From an uncultured Treponema sp. (GTDB taxonomy: Bacteria > Spirochaetota > Spirochaetia > Treponematales > Treponemataceae): DNA of 34,988 nt. The position numbers were made by a program, and so were the translations under genes. Of this stretch, positions 19,043 through 34,837 are shown piece by piece. Each line of letters starts with the position of its first letter. Position 1 is the stretch's first letter. The stretch lies in assembly GCA_946540605.1 (NCBI GenBank), contig CAMNIU010000152.1:1-34988 (forward strand), in the 5' to 3' direction. The notes beneath the pieces are model-generated. The model saw nothing but the letters and a program-made list of their open reading frames with translations, was not told where the DNA came from and searched no databases.

Positions 19043-22000
19043 ATGGTAGATATTAAGAAAGTCCTTTTGGCAACAATTCTAAGCATTCTCGTTCCCGTCT
19101 TCGGTTTTGCCCATGGTAAGGGTGATGTTGAAGAAATCAGTGTAGAGAATATGAACAGCTGGCAGGAGTCTTTTGATTTGGAAAGTCGTAAGCCAGGCAA
19201 GTATAATATTATGATTACTGCACGTGACTTGGGTGGTAATGTTCACGTGGAAGGACCTCATAATATTTATTTGGATCCTAAATCAGATCTTCCTATTTGT
19301 GGAATTACAAACCCATATCCAAATATGCGCGTTGTAGGTAACCTTAATATTGTAGGTACCTGTGTTGATGATGATGGAGTTTCGCGTGTAGATTTGGTTT
19401 TTGATGAAGGAACCCCAATCGAAAAACATGTAACTGCAGAGGGTAAAGAATTCTGGTCATACTACCTCGATACCAATGACCTTGAAGAAGGCCCTCATAC
19501 CATCAAAGTAATTGGTTATGATATTAATGATATTCCTGTTGTAAGTAATCCTACTGTTCTTACATGGCAGCTTGACCGTAAGCAGCCTGTAACTGAGATT
19601 CAAGATAAGACAATGGGTATTCTTGTTTCAGGAAACGTAAAGTTTGACGGTATTGTTTCTGATGGAAACGGAATTAAAGAACTTTACTTTTCAACTGATA
19701 ATGGTGAAAACTTTGTTCCTGTAAAATTCGGCGGAAACAAAAACAAAGATCTCTGTGACTTTACAGTTTCTGTAGATACAAAAAAATTCCAGGATGGACC
19801 TGCTGTTTTGTGGTTTAAGGCTATAGATAAAGCTGGTTCTGTAGGATTGTATTCATTCCTTTATTTTATTGATAATACAAAACCTGATGTTGCAATTGTG
19901 TATCCAGAAGATGGCCAGATAATGGATGGTAAATTTACAGTTGCCGGTTATGCAAAAGATACAATCGGTGTAACTGATCTTACATGGAGCTTTGGTTCAG
20001 AGTCTGGTGAATTTGAACTTATTCCTGGTAACCCATATTGGGCTGTAAACGTTGATACAATTGGTCTTAAAGATAAATCTGCAAAATTTACAGTTCGTGC
20101 AAAAGACCGTGCAGGTAACGTTGTAGATGTAACACGCAATATTCCTCTTAATCAGGAAAATGATAAACCTGTAGTAACAATTTCTGATCCTATAAATGGA
20201 CAGAATTTTGGTGATTCAGATCCACTCTTTGTTCGTGGTATTGTTTCAGATCCTGATGGAGTAAAAGAAGTTCGCATTCAGCTTGATTCAAACGAACCGA
20301 TTGTTCAGGAAACAAAGGGTGTATTCTATTATCATCTTTGTACTGCAGAAGAACTTAGTGCCGGTAATCACAAGGTAACAGTTACTGCTGTTGATTCTAA
20401 TGATATAGTTGGAAATCCTGTTGTTGTAAATATTGTTTCTCGCGGAATAGCACCGGTTTATTCAGATGCAAAAATTACAGGCGGAAAAGATTCTGTTGAC
20501 TTTGTAAACGGAATGGAGATTCATCCTGAAAGCGGAAAGTCTTTCTCTGTTAATATTAATTCAGGGGTTGGAATCGTAAATGTTTCTTCTAAACTTACCT
20601 GGGGTGATGATGGTGTTTCAGAATCTTCTATTGCTCTTAAGAATGTAACTTCTTATAACTTTACACTTCCTATTGGTGCAGAAAGTCCAAAGGGTGTAAT
20701 GACACTTGAGGTTCAGGCAGAAGATATTATAGGCCGCGTTTCTACTTACCGCGGAATTTACTATGTAACAAATACAAATGTAGTAAAGGCAGAAGAACCA
20801 GTAATCGTATTTGATGACAGTACAGTTGCAGAAGATGGTTCTATCATAAGTAATCCTGAGTTCCCTGTTACTGGGTATCTGCTTGGAGCAAATGCTGCCA
20901 GTGCAGAACTTGTACCTTCAACAAAATTTGCTAAGGTTGAACTCGAGGGAAATCTCATTAAACTTATTTCTCTTGATGCAGTTGGAAGTTCAGAACCAGT
21001 TGTTGTAAGAATTAAGACAGATAAGGGTAAGACTGTTGAATCACGTCAGTTACGCTTCCGTGCAGATACTGCGCTTCCTGAGATTACTATTAATGATTAT
21101 TCAGACACAGTTGCTCTTAATGGCAGCGAAGGTTCAGTTTCTATTTCCGGTAAGGTTACCTGTGAAACTGGAGTAGGCGGACTCAAGTACAGAGTTATGT
21201 CTGCAAAAGTTGACATTCAGAAGGGAATTATTGGAACTGTTACAGCACCTGCCAGCAATGAAGATTTTACAAGTGTAAGTGTTGAAAAAGACGGTTCCTT
21301 CCGTTTTGACTTCTATCCGGATGGTTCTGGAGTACACCTTGTAGAACTTATTGCAGAAAGTGCAGGTGGTAATCAGGCTGCAAAAGCATTTGCCGTAAAG
21401 AATATTCCTGATGTTGAAGAACAGAACGGTAAAATGCCTGCTCCAAAGGCACCAGCTGTTTATTGGGCAGATGGTCTTGATGTTTATGCGCTTGCAGTTT
21501 ATCAGGGTGAACTGGAACAGGACTTTGCAGTTTATCCTCGTTCAGAAATGAATGAAGGTAATAATCCTGTAGCCTTTAATACAACTACAGCAGAAGGAAA
21601 GCCTGTTGCCGGAAAGTTCACTGCAGTTAAAAAGCCTTCTCTTGCTGCTCACATTGCAAACATAAATGATTCAGAATACTTTAGCGGTATGCCGGTTGTA
21701 CTCGGTTATGCTTCAAAAGATGTTGCAACAATCCGTCTTTATATTGATACAGGTGCGGCAGTTAATTCTGTAAGCTTCGAAATTACTGGTGATGAAATTG
21801 CCGGTGGTGCTGTAAGCCAGAAGGGTGCTGCAAAACTTATTAAGCCAACTCCAGATGAACCAATGCGCTGGATTGCAGAAATTCCTGCGACAAATCTTCC
21901 TTCTCGAGTAAACAAGCTTAGTGCTGTTATTAAGGCTGGTGCTCTTGAGCAGACCGTGACTGGTTCCTTTACAGTAGTTCGTGCAACATCTGATTCAAGA

Positions 22001-25000
22001 ATCAACGATGCCGAAGGTATTTATCCAATGGCAGCAGCTGACACTGAATATGATGAAATTGATGGCAATTACATTTTAAGCAACGGTTCAAAATTCTATT
22101 ATTATGCAAACTACAATGCTCCACTTAGCGTAGAAGTAGTTTCTCAGACTCCTGGCCTTGTTGCCGAAGTTGATGGAAATCTTATTACTCTGTCTGCTGA
22201 AAAAGACGGTATCTACAAGAATGTTACAGTTCGCATAACAGACCGATTTGGTGATAAATATAGTTCAAAACCTCTGAACTTTATTGCAAATACAAGCTTG
22301 CCTGAACTTAATCTTGTTACTCCAGAGCTTTTGCAGTGGGTAGGAAACGCAGTTAAAATTTCAGGTACTGCAGCGCATCCTCTTGGAATCCGCTCTGTAG
22401 AATACTCTCTGGATAACGGTGAAACCTGGGAGAACTTTGACCTTTCTAAGAATACAAATAGAGTTGGAGTTACTTTCAGCAAAGATATTGATATATCTTC
22501 AAGTTATGATGGTTTGATTAGAATTAACGTTCGTGCCCGCGATACTTCTGGACATGAAATCAGCGTTCTTTCTTCTGTTTACAAAGATGTAACTCCTCCA
22601 GAAGTTCGAGTAATTGAACCTCTTGATGTTGATGTTGTAAATGGTGAAAACCTTATTGTATTCGAAGTAAAAGATAACGGACTCTTTGCAGGTGCAGAAT
22701 ATCTTGCTCCTCCAGAAAAGGGTAGAACACAGACTCGTATTCCAATCGAAATGAATCCTCTTATCTATACTCATATTGGTACTGTAGAAGCACCAATCAG
22801 TGATGCAATGTCATTTGTATTCACAGATGATGCAGGAAATTCAACTCCAATTGAAGCATGGATGTTCAGTATTGATAGTGAATCTGACCTTCCACGTGCA
22901 GAAATCCACGTACCGGAAGATATGCAGGTTATTACCCGCGACTTCACAATTTCTGGTGTAGTTTACGATGATGATGGTGAATCATCTATCTTCTATAAGA
23001 TTGATAACGGTGAATTTAAGCAGGTTTCTACAAAAGAAATCTATAAGCAGCCGGATGCTTATGCAGAGTATAAGCTTAATACAAGCTTCTCAATTGATGT
23101 TCCTCTCAGCACTATGACAGATAATGAGCATACTGTTACAGTTTATGCAGTTGATGTAAACGGTGTTAAGGGACCGGAGGTATCACGCACTTACCGTATT
23201 TCTCTGGAAGAGCCAAAGGGTGCTGTAGAAAAGCCTACAATTGATACATCTGTTCGTAACATTGTAACAATTTCTGGTTGGGCAAGTGATAAGAACGGAA
23301 TTGCAAATGTTAAGGTTTCTCTTGATAACGGTAATACATATAACGAAGCTGTTGGAACAGAAAACTGGAGCTACACTGTAGATACTCGTGCTATTCCTGG
23401 TGGAACTCAGGTTGTGTTCCTTAAGGTAACAGACGGCTACGGTATTCAGGGACTTTATTCGAGTCTTATCAATATTGATAACAATGCACCTGTATTGAAC
23501 CTTGAGCTTCCTCTTGATGATTCAACTACAACAGGTATGTTGTTCTTCTCTGGTTATACTTATGATAATGTTGAAGTAACAGACTTGTACCTTACAATCC
23601 GAAATCTCGAAAAAGGTTCTTCTCCAATTGTAAAGAATCTTAAGATTGACCGAATTATTGGTGAAACAGTTGATATCACAAATCTTACAGATGGCTTTTA
23701 TAACGTAGAACTTACAGGAAAAGATAAGGCTGGAAATACTTCTAACGTAAGCCGTAACATTCACCTCGAAAAGAATGTTGCGCCTGCTACTGTAGATATT
23801 CTGTATCCGCTCAATGGTGAACATAAGAACGGTATGTTTACAATTTACGGACAGGCTGAATCTGAGACAGATATTTACTATCTCAATCTCTATATTGATG
23901 GCAAGTATGTTGCAGAAACAAATCTTACAGACTGTGGCTTCTTCAAGTTTGACCTTGGTCCAGGAAATCTTGAAGATGGTGAACATACTTATTACATCGA
24001 ATCTGTGCTTTCAACTGGTAAGACAGTTAATTCACGAGAGCAGACAATCACTTACTGTTCTGTAGGTCCTTGGATTACAATTGAAAACTTTACTTACGGT
24101 GACTTTGCTACAAACCGTCCATATATCCGCGGCCAGGCTGGATATTCTATCAGCGAAGATGAACTTCTGTTCTCTAAGACAAAGGAGGCTACTCCAGAAC
24201 AGAAGGCTGCAACAGCTGCAAAGAGAGTTGCAAAAATTGAAATGAGTTTCGATAACGGTAAGACATTCACAGAACTTTCAAAGAATGAAAAGTGGATGTA
24301 CCGTATAGAAAATCAGGATATTGAAGAGGGATACCACTTCTTCCTTCTCCGTGCAACAATGAAGAATGGTGAAACTGCTATTACTCGTACAATCATTCAG
24401 ATTGATAATACAGCTCCTTCTATCCGTTTGATTGCACCTATGAAGGGTGGACGCTATAACCAGGTACTTAATGCATCTGGACTTTCTAACGATGACGTTC
24501 AGCTTGAAGATGTAACAGTTGCATTGCGAAAGGGAGATAAGTCTTCTTACGAAGTTCCATCATTCATCCAGGGACTTTATGTAGACTTCCGTTTCTGGGG
24601 TGCAACACTCTTTGCTGTAGGTGCCGGACTTACCTTCTTCGACGATGTTGTAAAGGTACAGGCATCTTACGGTCAGTTTACACAGCAGCAGCGCGACGCA
24701 GTTACAAATGTATTCAAACGAGAGCTTACAGATCTTCGTTATGGTGGGCAGGTACTGTCTGGAAAGATTCTGGCAAATGTTGCCTCAATTCCATTCAGCT
24801 ATTTCCTTGGTCATGACTGGGACTGGCTTTCAGCTCAGGTTGCAATTGGTGCAGAGTTTGCATGGTTCAGCCAGACAAATAGTGGACGACCTCAGATTCT
24901 TTCTGCTGTCCTTACTCAGCTTGAGTTCCCTAGGGTAAAGATTCCTAATGTTAAGATGTTCAGTACATTCTCATTCTATACAGAAGGATCTTTGTGGTTC

Positions 25001-25084
25001 ATCCCAACCGATGTTTCCAGTGAAGTGAAGATTAAAAACCTTATACCACAGATTGCCTTTGGTTTAAGAACAAATATCTTCTAG
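19043..25084 (+). CDS. Giant Ig-like-repeat surface protein with barrel-like C-terminal domain
   Basis: A signal peptide (MVDIKKVLLATILSILVPVFG, cleaved near FAHG) starts a 2013-residue protein. Most of it is a tandem series of roughly 90-100-residue beta-sandwich units with recurring signatures: VxGxVxDxxGI, VxxSxDNGxT, NWSYTVDT, DxxGN and INIDNTAPxI, as in bacterial Ig-like/cadherin-like domains. An internal module recurs about 405 residues apart (around residues 630-680 and 1035-1085: EGNLIKL / DGNLITL, then RFRADTALPEI / NFIANTSLPEL). The last ~170 residues (from about 1843, FIQGLYVDFRFWG) have alternating strands and end RTNIF, resembling an outer-membrane-embedded domain. This suggests a long stalk or adhesin. 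The ribosome site AGAGG precedes ATG 19043. The next gene follows after 16 bp, so it heads an operon. The ligand is unknown. Confidence 0.82.
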   Translation: MVDIKKVLLATILSILVPVFGFAHGKGDVEEISVENMNSWQESFDLESRKPGKYNIMITARDLGGNVHVEGPHNIYLDPKSDLPICGITNPYPNMRVVGNLNIVGTCVDDDGVSRVDLVFDEGTPIEKHVTAEGKEFWSYYLDTNDLEEGPHTIKVIGYDINDIPVVSNPTVLTWQLDRKQPVTEIQDKTMGILVSGNVKFDGIVSDGNGIKELYFSTDNGENFVPVKFGGNKNKDLCDFTVSVDTKKFQDGPAVLWFKAIDKAGSVGLYSFLYFIDNTKPDVAIVYPEDGQIMDGKFTVAGYAKDTIGVTDLTWSFGSESGEFELIPGNPYWAVNVDTIGLKDKSAKFTVRAKDRAGNVVDVTRNIPLNQENDKPVVTISDPINGQNFGDSDPLFVRGIVSDPDGVKEVRIQLDSNEPIVQETKGVFYYHLCTAEELSAGNHKVTVTAVDSNDIVGNPVVVNIVSRGIAPVYSDAKITGGKDSVDFVNGMEIHPESGKSFSVNINSGVGIVNVSSKLTWGDDGVSESSIALKNVTSYNFTLPIGAESPKGVMTLEVQAEDIIGRVSTYRGIYYVTNTNVVKAEEPVIVFDDSTVAEDGSIISNPEFPVTGYLLGANAASAELVPSTKFAKVELEGNLIKLISLDAVGSSEPVVVRIKTDKGKTVESRQLRFRADTALPEITINDYSDTVALNGSEGSVSISGKVTCETGVGGLKYRVMSAKVDIQKGIIGTVTAPASNEDFTSVSVEKDGSFRFDFYPDGSGVHLVELIAESAGGNQAAKAFAVKNIPDVEEQNGKMPAPKAPAVYWADGLDVYALAVYQGELEQDFAVYPRSEMNEGNNPVAFNTTTAEGKPVAGKFTAVKKPSLAAHIANINDSEYFSGMPVVLGYASKDVATIRLYIDTGAAVNSVSFEITGDEIAGGAVSQKGAAKLIKPTPDEPMRWIAEIPATNLPSRVNKLSAVIKAGALEQTVTGSFTVVRATSDSRINDAEGIYPMAAADTEYDEIDGNYILSNGSKFYYYANYNAPLSVEVVSQTPGLVAEVDGNLITLSAEKDGIYKNVTVRITDRFGDKYSSKPLNFIANTSLPELNLVTPELLQWVGNAVKISGTAAHPLGIRSVEYSLDNGETWENFDLSKNTNRVGVTFSKDIDISSSYDGLIRINVRARDTSGHEISVLSSVYKDVTPPEVRVIEPLDVDVVNGENLIVFEVKDNGLFAGAEYLAPPEKGRTQTRIPIEMNPLIYTHIGTVEAPISDAMSFVFTDDAGNSTPIEAWMFSIDSESDLPRAEIHVPEDMQVITRDFTISGVVYDDDGESSIFYKIDNGEFKQVSTKEIYKQPDAYAEYKLNTSFSIDVPLSTMTDNEHTVTVYAVDVNGVKGPEVSRTYRISLEEPKGAVEKPTIDTSVRNIVTISGWASDKNGIANVKVSLDNGNTYNEAVGTENWSYTVDTRAIPGGTQVVFLKVTDGYGIQGLYSSLINIDNNAPVLNLELPLDDSTTTGMLFFSGYTYDNVEVTDLYLTIRNLEKGSSPIVKNLKIDRIIGETVDITNLTDGFYNVELTGKDKAGNTSNVSRNIHLEKNVAPATVDILYPLNGEHKNGMFTIYGQAESETDIYYLNLYIDGKYVAETNLTDCGFFKFDLGPGNLEDGEHTYYIESVLSTGKTVNSREQTITYCSVGPWITIENFTYGDFATNRPYIRGQAGYSISEDELLFSKTKEATPEQKAATAAKRVAKIEMSFDNGKTFTELSKNEKWMYRIENQDIEEGYHFFLLRATMKNGETAITRTIIQIDNTAPSIRLIAPMKGGRYNQVLNASGLSNDDVQLEDVTVALRKGDKSSYEVPSFIQGLYVDFRFWGATLFAVGAGLTFFDDVVKVQASYGQFTQQQRDAVTNVFKRELTDLRYGGQVLSGKILANVASIPFSYFLGHDWDWLSAQVAIGAEFAWFSQTNSGRPQILSAVLTQLEFPRVKIPNVKMFSTFSFYTEGSLWFIPTDVSSEVKIKNLIPQIAFGLRTNIF

Positions 25085-25100
25085 GCGTAAAGGAGTTAAG

Positions 25101-26225
25101 ATGTTTTGTAGAAAACTGAAAATATTATCTGCTTTACTTTTACTTACAGTTGTTTCAACTAAAGCCTTTGCCTTAGAGGAATACGTAAGTGATATCTATA
25201 AACAGATAGATGGTTGCTTTACTGCTAAGGATGAAGGTAAATTAAATGATGTACTTTCAAAAAATACAAAAGATAAGTATTATTATTTAATTGAGAATTA
25301 TACACAGAAAAAAATCCGTCGCCTTATCGTAGTTAATGATTACGATTTTGCAATGGAAGCAACACTTGCTCTTATTGAGAATAACCTCGATAATGAAGAA
25401 GCTGTTGAAATGTATTCTGTAATTTCAGATGCATACGAAATTCAACGTAAGCATGAGGCAGAACTTGAGCATCAGCGACAGCTTGAACTTGCCCGAATTG
25501 AAATGGAAAAAGAGAAGCAGCGTGGTAATGTAGAAAAAGAATATGTTTCCGCAGCTAAAACTTCTGGTGGTTCAGTTTATGTAAGTGGAAAGGAAACAAA
25601 ACTTACAAGTTACACCTGGAAGGCTTCTCTTGGAATGATAAATTTACTTCACTTGTTTGATAAACAGGGTGATATAAATTCTCTCCATTATGGTGTAGCA
25701 TTGGACTTTAGATACGAATACACGATGGAGAACAAAATGGCAATAGGAACAGATGCTTTTGTGGGGTTCCAGTTTCTAGGCTTTGCAGAAGATGAAAAAC
25801 TTGTTCCTATGCTCGGAGATGTTGACTTAGCTCTTAAGGCTTCATTTCCACAGGTTTCTAAGAATCTGTTCTTTAGAATGGGTTTTGATACACTGGTTAC
25901 AGGAAAATCAAAAACTGCACCAGATACAAATTCGGTTGTGGGAATGTTCTATTCTCCAACAATCGGTGTAAAGATGGAACGCATACCGCTTGGAGCATTG
26001 AAGTTAGATATTGGTGCGGATTGGCTTGCAGGACATCTATTTATGAAAGATATAAAGGCGGCAGCGGCAGCTTCTATGAATGTAGAGATTCCGTTTGCTG
26101 AAATGGAAAAAGTTAAGTTGAACTTTAATATTGGAGTTAGGGATAAGTTCTTTATTAAGAATGAAGGACTTGAAAATCGAGCAAGCGTAATTATGGCTAT
26201 TGGAGTAGAAAATGTTATTAGATAA
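25101..26225 (+). CDS. Exported coiled-coil/beta-domain protein of the Ig-protein operon, function unknown
   Basis: This 374-residue protein has a signal peptide (KLKILSALLLLTVVSTKAFA, cleaved before LEEYVSD). A helical region up to about residue 110 follows, then a short charged coiled coil (about 113-150; EAELEHQRQLELARIEMEKE). From about 165 a beta-rich C-terminal half runs to the end (LDFRYEYTMENKMAIG, VGFQFLGFA, FFRMGFDTLV). The C-terminal half looks like a small outer-membrane barrel or a beta domain placed next to it. AAGGAG lies 6 bases before its ATG, 16 bp after the Ig-protein gene, and its end overlaps the next gene by 14 bp. The packing implies it works with both neighbours, perhaps bridging the surface protein to the inner-membrane sensor (inference). 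No named family recognised. Confidence 0.75.
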   Translation: MFCRKLKILSALLLLTVVSTKAFALEEYVSDIYKQIDGCFTAKDEGKLNDVLSKNTKDKYYYLIENYTQKKIRRLIVVNDYDFAMEATLALIENNLDNEEAVEMYSVISDAYEIQRKHEAELEHQRQLELARIEMEKEKQRGNVEKEYVSAAKTSGGSVYVSGKETKLTSYTWKASLGMINLLHLFDKQGDINSLHYGVALDFRYEYTMENKMAIGTDAFVGFQFLGFAEDEKLVPMLGDVDLALKASFPQVSKNLFFRMGFDTLVTGKSKTAPDTNSVVGMFYSPTIGVKMERIPLGALKLDIGADWLAGHLFMKDIKAAAAASMNVEIPFAEMEKVKLNFNIGVRDKFFIKNEGLENRASVIMAIGVENVIR

Positions 26226-27678
26226 GCTTAAGAGAATTGTTATTGCATTATTAGTGTTCTTCTTTACAGCTCAGGTTTTTGCGGCAACAACAGATTTGGC
26301 CGTACGCTTTTTGGACAAAGCAAATGAAGCTTTTGAAGAAGATAATATTGAAGATGCTTACAAGTATGTAAACCAGGCTCTTGCGGTTGCAAAGGATGAA
26401 GATTCTCAGGCTAATGTCCTTATCTTTGCACAGACTGTATATAAGGTAAAATTACAGAAGATTCAGCAGAAATATGATGACATGGCACTCATTGATATAA
26501 AGATGAATCTTGAGAAGTACCCTAATGTTGAAAGTACTTCAATTAAGAAACTTATTAAGCAGATTGAAACTGATCAGGAAAATAAAGAAAAGGCTGCACA
26601 AAAGGCCGAGACCGCTGCTCAGCGAAAAGTAGAACAGGAACGCTTTGAAGCTCAGCAGGAATCTATGGAAGCTCAGTCTAAAGCCATTAAAGAGCAGGCA
26701 GAAGCAATGAAAGAGCAGGCTAAGGCTAGTAAGGAACAGGCTGAAGCTACAAAACAGAGCCAGCAGGAAATGAAATCTGCACTTGAAAGTATTGGAACAT
26801 CATTCAATGAAAATGCAAGAGAGCAGAAGCGTTCTACACGAGTAATTGCTTTTTCAATAATTGGAATTGCAATTCTTATCGTGTTTATTGTAATCCTGAT
26901 TATGGTTATTGTTCGCAAGGCTGCTAAAGCTTCTCAGATTCAACAGGAACAGTATGTTCAGGCATTTAAGATGCTGGCTGCAAATCAGAGTCAGACTAAC
27001 CGCCTTATGCTTGGTGGAATTACAGATATTTATGGTGGTAATCCATCTTTAAGAATTGCAGGTTCATCTACCTGGGCTCCGGCTGCTGCTCTTCCAGATG
27101 TTACTTTCTCAGAAGAAGATGAAGAGGAACTTAAACAGCTTGCCATTAAGTGTGAAGAAATTGGTCAGCAGATTGATAATGTAACCGGTCGAAAAAATAA
27201 CTCTAAGAACGTAAGTGAACTTGTTTATAAACTTTCCATTCAGCTTGGTCTCCCACAGGGAATGGCTATGCTCAATTTCTGTGCTTCTATGATTTACGAT
27301 GCCGGATTCCTTGCAATTGACCCTGATCTTCTTGTTGCAACTCAACTTACAGAAGAAGAAAAGAAGGCTATGAAGGAACACGTTAATCTTGCAGAAAAAC
27401 ATCTTGAGTTTGTTCCAAAGAAATACTGGAGTGTATTTGAAGATGCAGCTACAAAGCATCATGAAAATATTGATGGTACTGGATATCCACATGGACTTTC
27501 TGGAGATGAAATTCCACAGATTGCACGCCTTATTCGTGTAGCAGAAAGTTATGTTTCTCTTTCAAGTAAGCGTGCTTACCGCGATGCAATGGATAAGGAA
27601 ACTGCTGTTAATACACTTAAAGAACAGCCAGGAATCTATGATACAGAAGTTGTAGATGCTTTGGATAAAATAGTTTAA
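26212..27678 (+). CDS. Membrane sensor with exported helical/coiled-coil region and degenerate cytoplasmic HD-GYP domain
   Basis: The order is signal sequence (residues 1-25, ends QVFAATTD), TPR-like helices (about 28-115; LDKANEAFEEDNIEDAYKYV) and a long EQAEAMKEQAKASK coiled coil to about 190. One transmembrane helix follows (211-234) and then a cytoplasmic HD-GYP domain (about 300-488). HD-GYP proteins hydrolyse or sense c-di-GMP. HHENIDGTGYP (416-426) is intact and His390 is kept. The usual HDxGK is Tyr362-Asp363-Ala-Gly-Phe, and the usual VAD is VAE, so two metal-site positions and the lysine are changed. The protein may thus be a binding or weakly active relay rather than a normal phosphodiesterase. 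GGAG lies 6 bases before the ATG, and the gene overlaps its upstream neighbour by 14 bp, suggesting coupled translation. Confidence 0.82.
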   Translation: MLLDKLKRIVIALLVFFFTAQVFAATTDLAVRFLDKANEAFEEDNIEDAYKYVNQALAVAKDEDSQANVLIFAQTVYKVKLQKIQQKYDDMALIDIKMNLEKYPNVESTSIKKLIKQIETDQENKEKAAQKAETAAQRKVEQERFEAQQESMEAQSKAIKEQAEAMKEQAKASKEQAEATKQSQQEMKSALESIGTSFNENAREQKRSTRVIAFSIIGIAILIVFIVILIMVIVRKAAKASQIQQEQYVQAFKMLAANQSQTNRLMLGGITDIYGGNPSLRIAGSSTWAPAAALPDVTFSEEDEEELKQLAIKCEEIGQQIDNVTGRKNNSKNVSELVYKLSIQLGLPQGMAMLNFCASMIYDAGFLAIDPDLLVATQLTEEEKKAMKEHVNLAEKHLEFVPKKYWSVFEDAATKHHENIDGTGYPHGLSGDEIPQIARLIRVAESYVSLSSKRAYRDAMDKETAVNTLKEQPGIYDTEVVDALDKIV

Positions 27679-27684
27679 TAGATT

Positions 27685-27722
27685 AGATTGTCACGTCGCC
27701 TGCGACTCCTTGCAATGACGAC
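27685..27722. repeat. Dispersed palindromic repeat (GATTG-CACGTCGCC...GCAATGACG family)
   Basis: This copy lies just after the HD-GYP gene's stop. It begins GATTGTCACGTCGCC and ends CTCCTTGCAATGACG, with GTCGC/GCGAC pairing in the middle. It matches the minus-strand reading of the last unit in the 1226-1378 cluster. It may act as an end-of-operon hairpin. Confidence 0.7.
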
Positions 27723-27766
27723 AAACGATATTAAATATTTGTGCAATTTCTGCCGATAAAGAGAGT

Positions 27767-30106
27767 ATGAAAAAATCATTTTTTTGTACTCTCTTTGTTT
27801 TTTTAACGGCGCTTGCTTTTGCAGATGAAGTAAAGCCTTTATACCGACTCCCTGAAAAAAATCCTGTAAATGCACAGGAAGGTGAAACCGAGCACGAAGT
27901 ATTTCTCGTGGGCTCAGACAACGGACTTTTCAGGGTTACCAACAGAAATTCTGCAATTCCCGTATGGACAGAAAGCCGTGTAGACCAGCTTTTACGCGTT
28001 ACTTTGCCAGATGACAGTGGCGTTATAAAACCGGCCTGGCTTATGCGAACTCAAAAAGGTATTTTTTATAGTAATGACCTTAAGACCTTTGAAGAGCGAG
28101 ATAAGGGTCTTCCATTCCTGACAATCAAAAAATATTCAGAAGGTAAAACGACTCTTGAACTGCAGATTCAGGAACTAAAAGACCTATGTGTTAACCCTCT
28201 TAATAACAGCGAAGTTGTAACAGCAACGAAAGACAGTGTGTTCTTTAGCCGGGATGGTGGACTCACCTGGCAGAATCTTAGTTCTATGAGTAAGAATTCT
28301 CCCGGTGTAAAAGCTGTTGCAGTTGCTACTATAGAAAATCAACCGGTTGTATTTATGGCTCACCCGATATTTGGTCTTTCATTTATTTTGCCAGATAAAC
28401 CTAAGCCGGAATGGCAGGATATTGATGCAGGCTTTGAAAAAATGCCGTCTCTAACTTCGCCAGATGAAATTGCAGATATTCTTCCTGTTGTGCGTACTAA
28501 TGCAGATGGTTCAACTTATACAGAAATCTATATTTCGCAGACTTATATTCCACGAATATACCGCTTGAACTGGCAGGAAAAACAGGCAGAACTGATTTAT
28601 ACAGGTTCTGAACCTACCGATGTTACCGATGGTCTTACAACAATCGATAATGTTCTTTTGTATACAAAGCTCGAAGGTTTTGGTGCAATTGATTTAGATT
28701 CTCTGCAGAGTCCTGGAACTCCAAGTCAGGAAAAAGACTGGCACGATGCCTTTAGTTCCGTTCCTGGAATGATAAATACTGCCTGGATTCCTCAGTCTCG
28801 CAGTGGCTTTGCAAGAGGGCTTCAACTAAATGAACTCTGGCTTTTATATCCTGGAACTATAAATACTCCTTATGCAGAAATTGCTAATGGCCGTAAGAGT
28901 ATTTATGCTTCTGCATATCAGTGCAGCTTCCCCGAGGGAGTTGCCAAGTTTAAGAAGATCGTAAAAGACCGCAATATGAATTCAATTGTAATTGATATGA
29001 AGGATGATTACGGCTTTTTGCGTTATGATTCACATGATCCGCTTGTTCTGGAAAAATGTTCTACATCCGGTTATGCAATTAAAGACCTTAATAAATTTAT
29101 TGAAGAATTCAAAAAAGAGAATATCTATCTTGTAGCACGAATTGTAACTTTTAAAGACCGTTCTCTTTCAAAATATAAAAACGGAAAATATGCAGTCTGG
29201 GACAAAAAGCTTAATAAACCATGGCTTGGAATTAAGGGCTCAGAAGATGTCCTTGATGAAGAAGGTAACCCGACTGGAAATAAAGAAACAACTTATTATG
29301 ATGAGCAGTGGGTAGATCCGTATTCAGAAGAGGTTTGGGAATATAATGTTGCAATTGCAAAAGAGCTTGTTGCCCGTGGCTTTGATGAAATTCAGTTTGA
29401 CTATATCCGCTTTCCTACAGATGGATTAAATCTTTATAATGCTCAGTACCGCTGGCAGGATAAGGGGATGGATAAGGAATCTGCCTTGATTTCGTTCCTT
29501 TCTTATGCGCGTGCAAATATTCAGGCTCCAATTGGTATTGATATTTATGGTGCGAACGGCTGGTACAGAAGTGGTACCCGTACAGGTCAGGATGCGGAAA
29601 TGCTTGCAGAGTATGTTGATGTAATTGGCCCGATGTTCTATCCAAGTCACTTTGAGCAGACTTTCCTTAATTATGCTCCTGTGGCAGACCGTACTTACCG
29701 CATTTACTATTATGGTTCGTTCAGAAATACAGTACTTTGTCGTAACCGTGCAATTATTCGTCCGTGGGTTCAGTCGTTCTATCTGAATGTAAGCTACGAC
29801 AGACTTTATTATGATTCAGATTATATAAAGAAGCAGTTCTTTGGTGTTCGTGATTCTCTGGACCGCGGCTATATGTGCTGGAATAATTCTGGTGAATATG
29901 GAACGACACCACCTGATATTAGTGAAACTGATAAATTTATAGGAACAACCGCAGAAGCAAGCAGGGAATTCCGTAAACCTGCAATTGGTGATACAATGAA
30001 GCCCCTTTATGTAGATTCGGATGTTTCTGTATTAGATAGTATTCTTTCGCCGTATCGCGAAGAAAATACAACAGTATTCCGTCCGTTCTTAAAAGTAATG
30101 CCATAA
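27767..30106 (+). CDS. DUF4015-type putative glycoside hydrolase with N-terminal beta-propeller-like region
   Basis: A signal peptide (KKSFFCTLFVFLTALAFA, cleaved before DEVKPLY) precedes a ~350-residue beta-rich region. That region holds an Asp-box-like SRDGGLTW near residue 162 and sequences reminiscent of sialidase or photosynthesis-factor propellers. From about residue 375 (KSIYASAYQC) to about 690 is a TIM-barrel-like DUF4015 domain: NSIVIDMKDDYGFLRYDS, NIYLVARIVTFKD, FDEIQFDYIRFPTDG, PIGIDIYGANGWY and DVIGPMFYPSH. The acidic FDYIRFP strand is the likely active-site region. The substrate is unknown; a polysaccharide is expected from the fold. AAAGAGAG serves as a ribosome site. The mnmE gene follows 12 bp after the stop, so the two are probably co-transcribed, an unexpected pairing. 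Confidence 0.83.
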   Translation: MKKSFFCTLFVFLTALAFADEVKPLYRLPEKNPVNAQEGETEHEVFLVGSDNGLFRVTNRNSAIPVWTESRVDQLLRVTLPDDSGVIKPAWLMRTQKGIFYSNDLKTFEERDKGLPFLTIKKYSEGKTTLELQIQELKDLCVNPLNNSEVVTATKDSVFFSRDGGLTWQNLSSMSKNSPGVKAVAVATIENQPVVFMAHPIFGLSFILPDKPKPEWQDIDAGFEKMPSLTSPDEIADILPVVRTNADGSTYTEIYISQTYIPRIYRLNWQEKQAELIYTGSEPTDVTDGLTTIDNVLLYTKLEGFGAIDLDSLQSPGTPSQEKDWHDAFSSVPGMINTAWIPQSRSGFARGLQLNELWLLYPGTINTPYAEIANGRKSIYASAYQCSFPEGVAKFKKIVKDRNMNSIVIDMKDDYGFLRYDSHDPLVLEKCSTSGYAIKDLNKFIEEFKKENIYLVARIVTFKDRSLSKYKNGKYAVWDKKLNKPWLGIKGSEDVLDEEGNPTGNKETTYYDEQWVDPYSEEVWEYNVAIAKELVARGFDEIQFDYIRFPTDGLNLYNAQYRWQDKGMDKESALISFLSYARANIQAPIGIDIYGANGWYRSGTRTGQDAEMLAEYVDVIGPMFYPSHFEQTFLNYAPVADRTYRIYYYGSFRNTVLCRNRAIIRPWVQSFYLNVSYDRLYYDSDYIKKQFFGVRDSLDRGYMCWNNSGEYGTTPPDISETDKFIGTTAEASREFRKPAIGDTMKPLYVDSDVSVLDSILSPYREENTTVFRPFLKVMP

Positions 30107-33544: not shown

Positions 33545-34837
33545 TTAAATATTTGAAATAATTCTGTTTCGACCGCTGGACTTTGCTTCATACATAGCCT
33601 TGTCTACGCGGTCGAAAATTATTTGGGCGGTATCGCCTTTTTTTAGTTCCGTTAATCCGATACTACATGTAATTTTGATTGCTTTTTCAAACGTAGTATC
33701 TTCTATTTTTTGTCTGAGTTTTTCGGCAATTGATTTTAGTTCTTCAAGATTCATTTCATAACAGACGCAAACGAATTCTTCGCCACCCCAGCGGCCTATT
33801 GTCATTTTATAAGGCTGTATAAATTCTTTTATAGCTTTTGCAAACTGTTTAAGAACGATATCACCTACTGAGTGTCCATATTTATCATTTACTTTCTTGA
33901 AAAAATCAATATCCAGCATCATATATGAAACAGATTCGCCATTGCTATTAAAGGCTTCTATTGAGTTGCTGATTTCGGTCTCAATTCTTCCGTGATTGTA
34001 AATGTCTGTGAGCGGGTCTTTTGAAGCAAGTTCTTCATAACGTTTAAGTGTATCAAATAGTTTAAGATGATTTTCGTGGATATTCTGAACCATGAATACA
34101 AATCTGAAATCTTCTTCATTTGTTGTATGTGCACGGCTAAAAATCAATTTTACCCAGATGAATACTCCTTCAAGGTTTTTCATCTGGCAGTCAAAAGAGG
34201 TTGCACGGCCTGGTTCAAGATTTTTTTTGAGATATTCTGGATCTGTGCGTTCAAGAAATAGTTTCTGATCATCTGGCCAAATCATATTTACAATCATTTG
34301 GCGCCAGGTGGTATATTTTACATCGTAGTTCTGTGGATTATTTGAAATCTCTGTTACATTGATGCTGTAGGAAATGTCCTTAATCAAATCAACATACATA
34401 GAAAACAAGAAGGTGTTCTGTATAGTGTCAATTTTACGGTCTGTAAGAAAGTCTCGCAGATATTCGCTGTTATCAAGTTCATCAAGAATAAATACGTATT
34501 TTGTACAAGATTCATCAATTGGGTATATGGAAATTTGAACAAGATGAGTTTTTTCATCAATGTTCAGATTTACCCGGTCAACATATTTACCCTTAAACTT
34601 TCCCATCATAGGGATGAATACATGATAATCATCTGTTATTTTTTTGGGGCTGCCATTAAGGTTAAACCAGAGTTTTTCAACAAGACTTTTATAGCTTCCT
34701 TCGTTTTCAACAAATGTTTCAAACAGGCCTTGTTTTTTTACAGTTTGATAAGTGTCTTTTTCTGCATCAACAATAATTATGGAATCAATTTTTTGAAATA
34801 ATAAATCCGAAATACTTTCTTTTGTGTAGACACTCAT
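33545..34837 (-). CDS. GGDEF-domain protein, predicted diguanylate cyclase with PAS-like sensor region
   Basis: Diguanylate cyclases make c-di-GMP from two GTP. The C-terminal GGDEF domain (about residues 270-430) has DPLTDIYNHGRIE at its start, MLDIDFFKKVNDKYGHSVGD, an intact active site RWGGEEF (GGEEF at 351-355) and a CSIGLTEL strand. The RxxD product-inhibition site normally just upstream is absent (IQPYKMTIG instead), so feedback control may be missing. The region before it (about 140-260) is PAS-like (TSFDCQMKNLEGVFIWVKL, then FVFMVQNI). The N-terminal ~130 residues are not recognised. No membrane helix or signal peptide is present, so it is cytoplasmic. AAAGGA lies 7 bases before the ATG. 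It could supply the signal read by the HD-GYP protein encoded about 6 kb upstream, but that is inference. Confidence 0.9.
   Translation of the reverse strand: MSVYTKESISDLLFQKIDSIIIVDAEKDTYQTVKKQGLFETFVENEGSYKSLVEKLWFNLNGSPKKITDDYHVFIPMMGKFKGKYVDRVNLNIDEKTHLVQISIYPIDESCTKYVFILDELDNSEYLRDFLTDRKIDTIQNTFLFSMYVDLIKDISYSINVTEISNNPQNYDVKYTTWRQMIVNMIWPDDQKLFLERTDPEYLKKNLEPGRATSFDCQMKNLEGVFIWVKLIFSRAHTTNEEDFRFVFMVQNIHENHLKLFDTLKRYEELASKDPLTDIYNHGRIETEISNSIEAFNSNGESVSYMMLDIDFFKKVNDKYGHSVGDIVLKQFAKAIKEFIQPYKMTIGRWGGEEFVCVCYEMNLEELKSIAEKLRQKIEDTTFEKAIKITCSIGLTELKKGDTAQIIFDRVDKAMYEAKSSGRNRIISNI

Follow-up and report, generated by a model that had tools for sequence, protein, structure and literature searches.

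Control of outer-membrane proteins by c-di-GMP is known mainly through Lap-type proteolysis, and little is known about the outputs of c-di-GMP to the envelope in spirochaetes. The solved protein nearest to the one studied here is DvhD from Desulfovibrio vulgaris, a dead HD-GYP receptor of c-di-GMP that belongs to a Lap-like adhesin system. DvhD is unable to hydrolyse c-di-GMP, binds it in a metal-free form with a Kd of ~99 nM and has helical stalks that splay on binding (PMC13090378).

We analyzed a window of 34,988 nucleotides from a draft genome of a Treponema-like genus (G000; 256 contigs, ~85% complete). An earlier reading of this DNA, made from the sequence alone (the sequence-only reading), had recognized in three of its genes, here called P1, P2 and P3, a unit that spans the envelope and is centred on a degenerate HD-GYP domain, with a Lap-like logic but unrelated parts, and our analysis agrees with this view. 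As with LapD, LapG and LapA, a dead cytoplasmic c-di-GMP domain that would act on the periplasm is found together with a large envelope protein. However, P3 has only an HD-GYP domain where LapD has GGDEF and EAL domains, P1 is barrel-anchored and lacks the architecture of a type 1 secreted adhesin like LapA, and Peptidase_C93, the family searched for as LapG-type protease, is absent from the 85% complete source genome. The receptor logic is known from LapD and DvhD (PMC13090378); the differences are a co-encoded, predicted outer-membrane barrel as partner instead of a protease, and the lack of a dCache domain.

The locus and the predicted folds of P1 and P2

P1 (19043..25084), P2 (25101..26225) and P3 (26212..27678) are all encoded on the + strand, and the spacings taken from the ORF list are 16 bp between P1 and P2 and -14 bp between P2 and P3. 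Shine-Dalgarno-like motifs precede the three starts, namely tagAGGtattag for P1, AAGGAGttaag for P2 (AAGGAG at 25090..25095, + strand) and tGGAGtagaaa for P3 (GGAG at 26202..26205, + strand, within the P2 gene). The gene positions, the spacings and the good ribosome sites given by the sequence-only reading are borne out by the ORFs and the sequence. Terminator and promoter patterns between the genes were not more numerous than in shuffled sequence. The next gene on the + strand (27767..30106) codes for a DUF4015 putative glycosyl hydrolase (Pfam E 1e-82), which is a conserved neighbour by synteny and which we do not assign to the unit. Between P3 and this gene, at 27688-27724, lies a palindrome-like element, TTGTCACGTC...GCAATGACGACAA, which resembles a dispersed intergenic repeat. 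The GGDEF gene that had been thought able to supply the signal is real (33545-34837), and stands three genes off on the strand opposite to P1-P3, but the source genome has 34 GGDEF matches, this one included; we thus dropped it as a dedicated source of c-di-GMP and give it no evidential weight.

P1 is a 2013-residue protein with a signal peptide and Ig repeats (Pfam Big_7, E 6e-47). In the AlphaFold2 model of its last 454 residues, two Ig domains are followed by a linker and eight strands, the latter forming a predicted outer-membrane barrel (residues 1840-2013, the last being a Phe; 24560..25081, + strand). Foldseek on this end of P1 returned mostly Ig matches and the barrel emerged only with VIA-align, which superimposed it on OprF (4RLC; Z 14.1, rmsd 3.0 over 127 aa) and OmpA (Z 12.1), at ~10% identity, so that the likeness is one of fold only and implies no function. 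A type V autotransporter was considered and rejected, because a 12-stranded translocator barrel would then be expected whereas eight strands are predicted, with OprF as best match. In OmpA and OprF, both ends of the barrel are directed towards the periplasm. Since the Ig chain of P1 lies N-terminal to a predicted barrel of this type, it should be periplasmic, barring an unknown export step. The description of P1 as an Ig-repeat protein with an outer-membrane-like end is therefore upheld, but its designation as a surface stalk becomes doubtful.

P2 (374 aa) was modelled with AlphaFold2 on 15 orthologs, with a mean pLDDT of 84.5 and values mostly of ~90 or above in the barrel strands. The predicted layout consists of a signal peptide, helices ending in a long helix (residues 99-143), a disordered linker and ten strands. 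We distinguish a periplasmic helical or coiled-coil arm (residues 26-143, with modelled helices over 45-143; 25176..25529, + strand) and a 10-stranded barrel (residues 168-374; 25602..26222, + strand). The prediction has the even strand number and the match to solved barrels that characterize outer-membrane beta-barrels. VIA-align gave Z 18.4 with an omptin and Z 18.1 with OpcA, again at ~10% identity, a likeness of fold without any implied function. The exported coiled-coil/beta protein of the sequence-only reading was thus right but understated. FapF, too, has an outer-membrane barrel preceded by a helical N-terminal part in the periplasm, and it occurs, weakly, among the Foldseek matches of P2; P2 differs from it by its ten strands, and the genes seen near P2 include none of the Fap amyloid type. 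A homology between the P2 arm and the exported segment of P3 was looked for with hhalign and rejected, the matches being weak and driven by the signal peptides.

In three genomes (G111, G156 and G145, at loci L156, L157 and L158), P2 is reduced to an arm of 118-119 aa, the barrel being gone. These short proteins are still encoded between P1 and P3. As they keep the arm and always have P1 upstream, they suggest that the arm is the part that P3 needs most, or that the P1 barrel substitutes for that of P2.

The degenerate HD-GYP domain of P3

P3 (488 aa) is composed of a signal peptide, an exported TPR-like or coiled-coil segment (residues 25-210; 26284..26841, + strand), whose probable topology is drawn from sequence and hydrophobicity, one transmembrane helix (residues ~207-243) and a cytoplasmic HD-GYP domain (27193..27651, + strand; Pfam HD_5, E 5e-26, 92 bits for a cut-off of 27.2). 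This matches the earlier description of a single-pass protein with an exported coiled coil and a degenerate HD-GYP domain inside the cell.

The degeneracy was analyzed by alignment to PmGH, with N330 placed opposite H189 via DvhD and the family profile. P3 belongs to the same domain family as the active HD-GYPs, and has the GYP motif, the ligand-contact residues and the equivalents of D222, H250, H276 and H277. However, Y362-D363 stands for H221-D222, F366 for K225, E445 for D305 and N330 for H189. An active phosphodiesterase has the metal ligands H189, H221, D222, H250, H276, H277 and D305 together with the catalytic K225, and P3 does not have this set. The replacements are nearly constant among P2-linked P3s, with Y for H221 in 97/98, F for K225 in 97/98, N for H189 in 93/99 and E for D305 in 89/98. 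Among eight ordinary HD-GYPs from the same genome, by contrast, H is retained in 8/8, K in 7/8 and D in 7/8. The dN/dS of the domain is 0.025 and 0.047 in two comparisons, the lowest value within P2 and P3 (0.10-0.14 for the exported part of P3 and 0.08-0.23 for the P2 barrel); as judged from these ratios, the domain is not decaying but is under strong purifying selection.

The best PDB matches of P3 are 9RBZ and 9RC0, that is, the cytoplasmic part of DvhD. The DvhD residues L577, K582, Y621, R650, Y652 and R653 correspond to L379, K384, Y425, R454, Y456 and R457 of P3; the second of these, K582, holds a phosphodiester of c-di-GMP in DvhD (PMC13090378). All six are well conserved among P3s, with L379 in 94/98, K or R384 in 90/98, Y425 in 93/98, R454 in 98/98, Y or F456 in 98/98 and R or K457 in 96/98. 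A basic residue at position 384 is also found in 7/14 other HD-GYPs with a broken motif and in only 6/64 of those with an intact HD..K motif, counts that are to be read with the relatedness of the sequences in mind, as they are not independent events. This yields a testable sequence rule, according to which a basic residue at P3-384/DvhD-582 accompanies the loss of the catalytic HD motif.

By sequence comparison, P3 thus has the features of a DvhD-type receptor, namely a lost HD motif and retained canonical c-di-GMP residues, and both are membrane proteins with a dead HD-GYP domain lacking the H of the HD motif. The likeness does not extend to all contacts, since E668, a specificity contact in DvhD, is replaced by Q, K or another residue in P3s, and P567 and R569 of its bridging site are changed in most of them. 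P3 further differs from DvhD in retaining D222, H276 and H277. DvhD has a periplasmic dCache domain and a cytoplasmic PAS domain, for which no Pfam or NCBIfam match was found in P3, whose exported part looks helical and TPR-like, with a coiled coil. Finally, DvhD controls the protease DvhG, whereas P3 is encoded with a predicted outer-membrane barrel, and the genes seen next to P3 include no protease.

Pairing of P2 with P3 and the place of P1

We searched 200 genomes of the genus and 393 of the phylum with a P2 profile, fetched the surroundings of the matches and labelled the neighbours by profiles. In 100/102 P2 loci, P3 lies directly 3' of P2 in the same orientation, and the two frames overlap or nearly abut. 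One of the two remaining loci (G195) is at a contig end. At the other (G211, L175), P1 and P2 are present and P3 is missing downstream, through either an assembly error or a real loss. The pair also occurs in other genera of the family (L162-L168) and in three distant families (G251, G267 and G537), where P2 is barely recognisable and P3 is still next to it, and one genome (G001) carries a second, divergent pair at another locus. The isolate Treponema sp. C6A8 and many rumen and gut MAGs have relatives of P3; among the single-contig genomes of the family, those of 1.1 Mb and 2.8 Mb showed no P3-like gene at E <1e-30. A literature search found no description of the P2-P3 pair in Treponema.

P1 behaves differently. 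It is immediately upstream of P2 in 61/102 P2 loci, with a median gap of 15 bp. This is a majority, and the three genes are accordingly not apart in most relatives, a finding that would have spoken against the sequence-only reading. On the P3 tree, however, the adjacency of P1 needs three changes only and fills one 57-genome clade, while it is missing from a 27-genome sister clade in which P2-P3 is usually located between MnmE and GlmS and P1 elsewhere. There are also loci (L176-L181) that lack P2-P3 and in which DUF4015 and MnmE come right after P1. The core unit is the P2-P3 pair, not the trio, and P1 is a looser, partly clade-specific neighbour. Because P1 adjacency varies by clade and the order P1-DUF4015-MnmE exists without P2-P3, the pair behaves as a cassette gained or lost as a unit beside P1. 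When P1 is not linked to P2-P3 (L051-L057), its usual neighbours are Sir2 and another giant protein, of ~1900 to >3300 residues.

The proposal of the sequence-only reading was a three-gene adhesin system, in which P1 would be the adhesin that acts as effector, under the control of a P2-P3 pair dedicated to it. Besides the frequent adjacency, which is constant in the genomes with a barrel-less P2, this proposal can invoke the presence of P1 anywhere in the genome in 92/96 genomes with P2, compared with 61/104 without it (Fisher p ~1e-10); the four P2-bearing genomes without P1 are 74-88% complete. On a GlmS tree of 61 genomes, which were picked by category and include some GlmS paralogues and one broken row (G101), all informative independent pairs favour an association of P1 with P2, ~3.5 to 0, but the sign test on this tree is not significant (median p 0.125). 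The 61 genomes that have P1 without P2-P3, and the few changes of adjacency noted above, also argue against P1 as a fixed member. We thus find the three-gene system somewhat unlikely: the pairing of P2 with P3 stood, and the fixed membership of P1 did not. Since P1 is adjacent in the majority of loci and present in nearly all P2-bearing genomes, it may nevertheless be a client of P2-P3.

A possible relay between the two membranes

We give about even chances to a reading in which P2 and P3 constitute an inside-out c-di-GMP relay spanning two membranes, with P3 as the receptor, the P2 barrel as its target and P1 as a possible client. P3 would be located in the inner membrane, where its HD-GYP domain, unable to hydrolyse c-di-GMP, would, like DvhD, bind it without needing metal. 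This would rearrange the helical stalk, the transmembrane helix and the exported coiled-coil segment of P3, and this segment would contact the helical periplasmic arm of P2. With the P2 barrel anchored in the outer membrane, cytoplasmic c-di-GMP could thereby change the state of an outer-membrane protein. P1, with its long Ig chain and its predicted place in the outer membrane, could be acted upon where it belongs to the same operon. A precedent for the proposed direction is offered by DvhD, which signals inside-out in its Lap-like adhesin system. If true, a direct relay from receptor to barrel would represent a different solution from Lap-type proteolysis.

The main rival is a signal in the opposite direction. 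P2, together with P1 where present, would then sense the state of the outer membrane or the surface, and P3 would relay it inward, its dead HD-GYP domain being a protein-interaction module that may not bind c-di-GMP. The receptor-like layout of P3 fits this idea, as do the higher dN/dS of the barrel in comparison with the HD-GYP domain, expected of an exposed input, and the fact that, elsewhere in the phylum, the gene before that of a P3-like protein codes for an envelope lipoprotein and not for a barrel. However, the near-invariant set of c-di-GMP contacts would need another reason, and we consider outside-in sensing unlikely. Quite improbable, in our opinion, is a structural tether in which P2 and P3 would bridge both membranes for envelope mechanics with the HD-GYP domain only as an anchor; the long helix predicted in P2 and the coiled-coil-like segment of P3 would suit such a role, and the layout seems to resemble that of envelope tethers, but neither the strong purifying selection on the cytoplasmic domain of P3 nor its near-invariant ligand site would be expected from an anchor. 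Phosphodiesterase activity of P3, by way of an unusual metal site, is hardly credible in spite of the four ligand equivalents that it retains, because those of H189, H221 and K225 are all lost and in PmGH each of the mutants H189A, H221A and K225A is essentially inactive (PMC4159591).

Returning to the inside-out relay, we tentatively propose, while doubting it somewhat more than the relay itself, that it exemplifies a class spread across spirochaetes, in which a dead HD-GYP receptor of the inner membrane, equipped with an exported TPR or coiled-coil segment, would directly operate a co-encoded outer-membrane partner without the protease on which Lap-type systems depend. The partner would be a 10-stranded barrel in Treponemataceae and, elsewhere, a kelch-like lipoprotein accompanied by a form of the receptor that keeps the HD motif.

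In other Spirochaetota, proteins with the layout of P3 (signal peptide, TPR, coiled coil, transmembrane helix and HD-GYP domain, with the HD dyad retained in most) are encoded -11 to 34 bp after a kelch-like lipoprotein of ~370-407 aa, as in L273:2009-4991, L275:2209-5185, L276:1747-5070 and L279:1221-4120. The kelch-like lipoprotein is a second kind of envelope partner for proteins of this layout. Members of the genus without P2 (L265, L267, L268, L266, L045 and L047) have a P3-like gene after the DUF4015 gene at -4 to 23 bp, a spacing that looks translationally coupled. In one genome (G061, L149), two P3-type genes flank MnmE.
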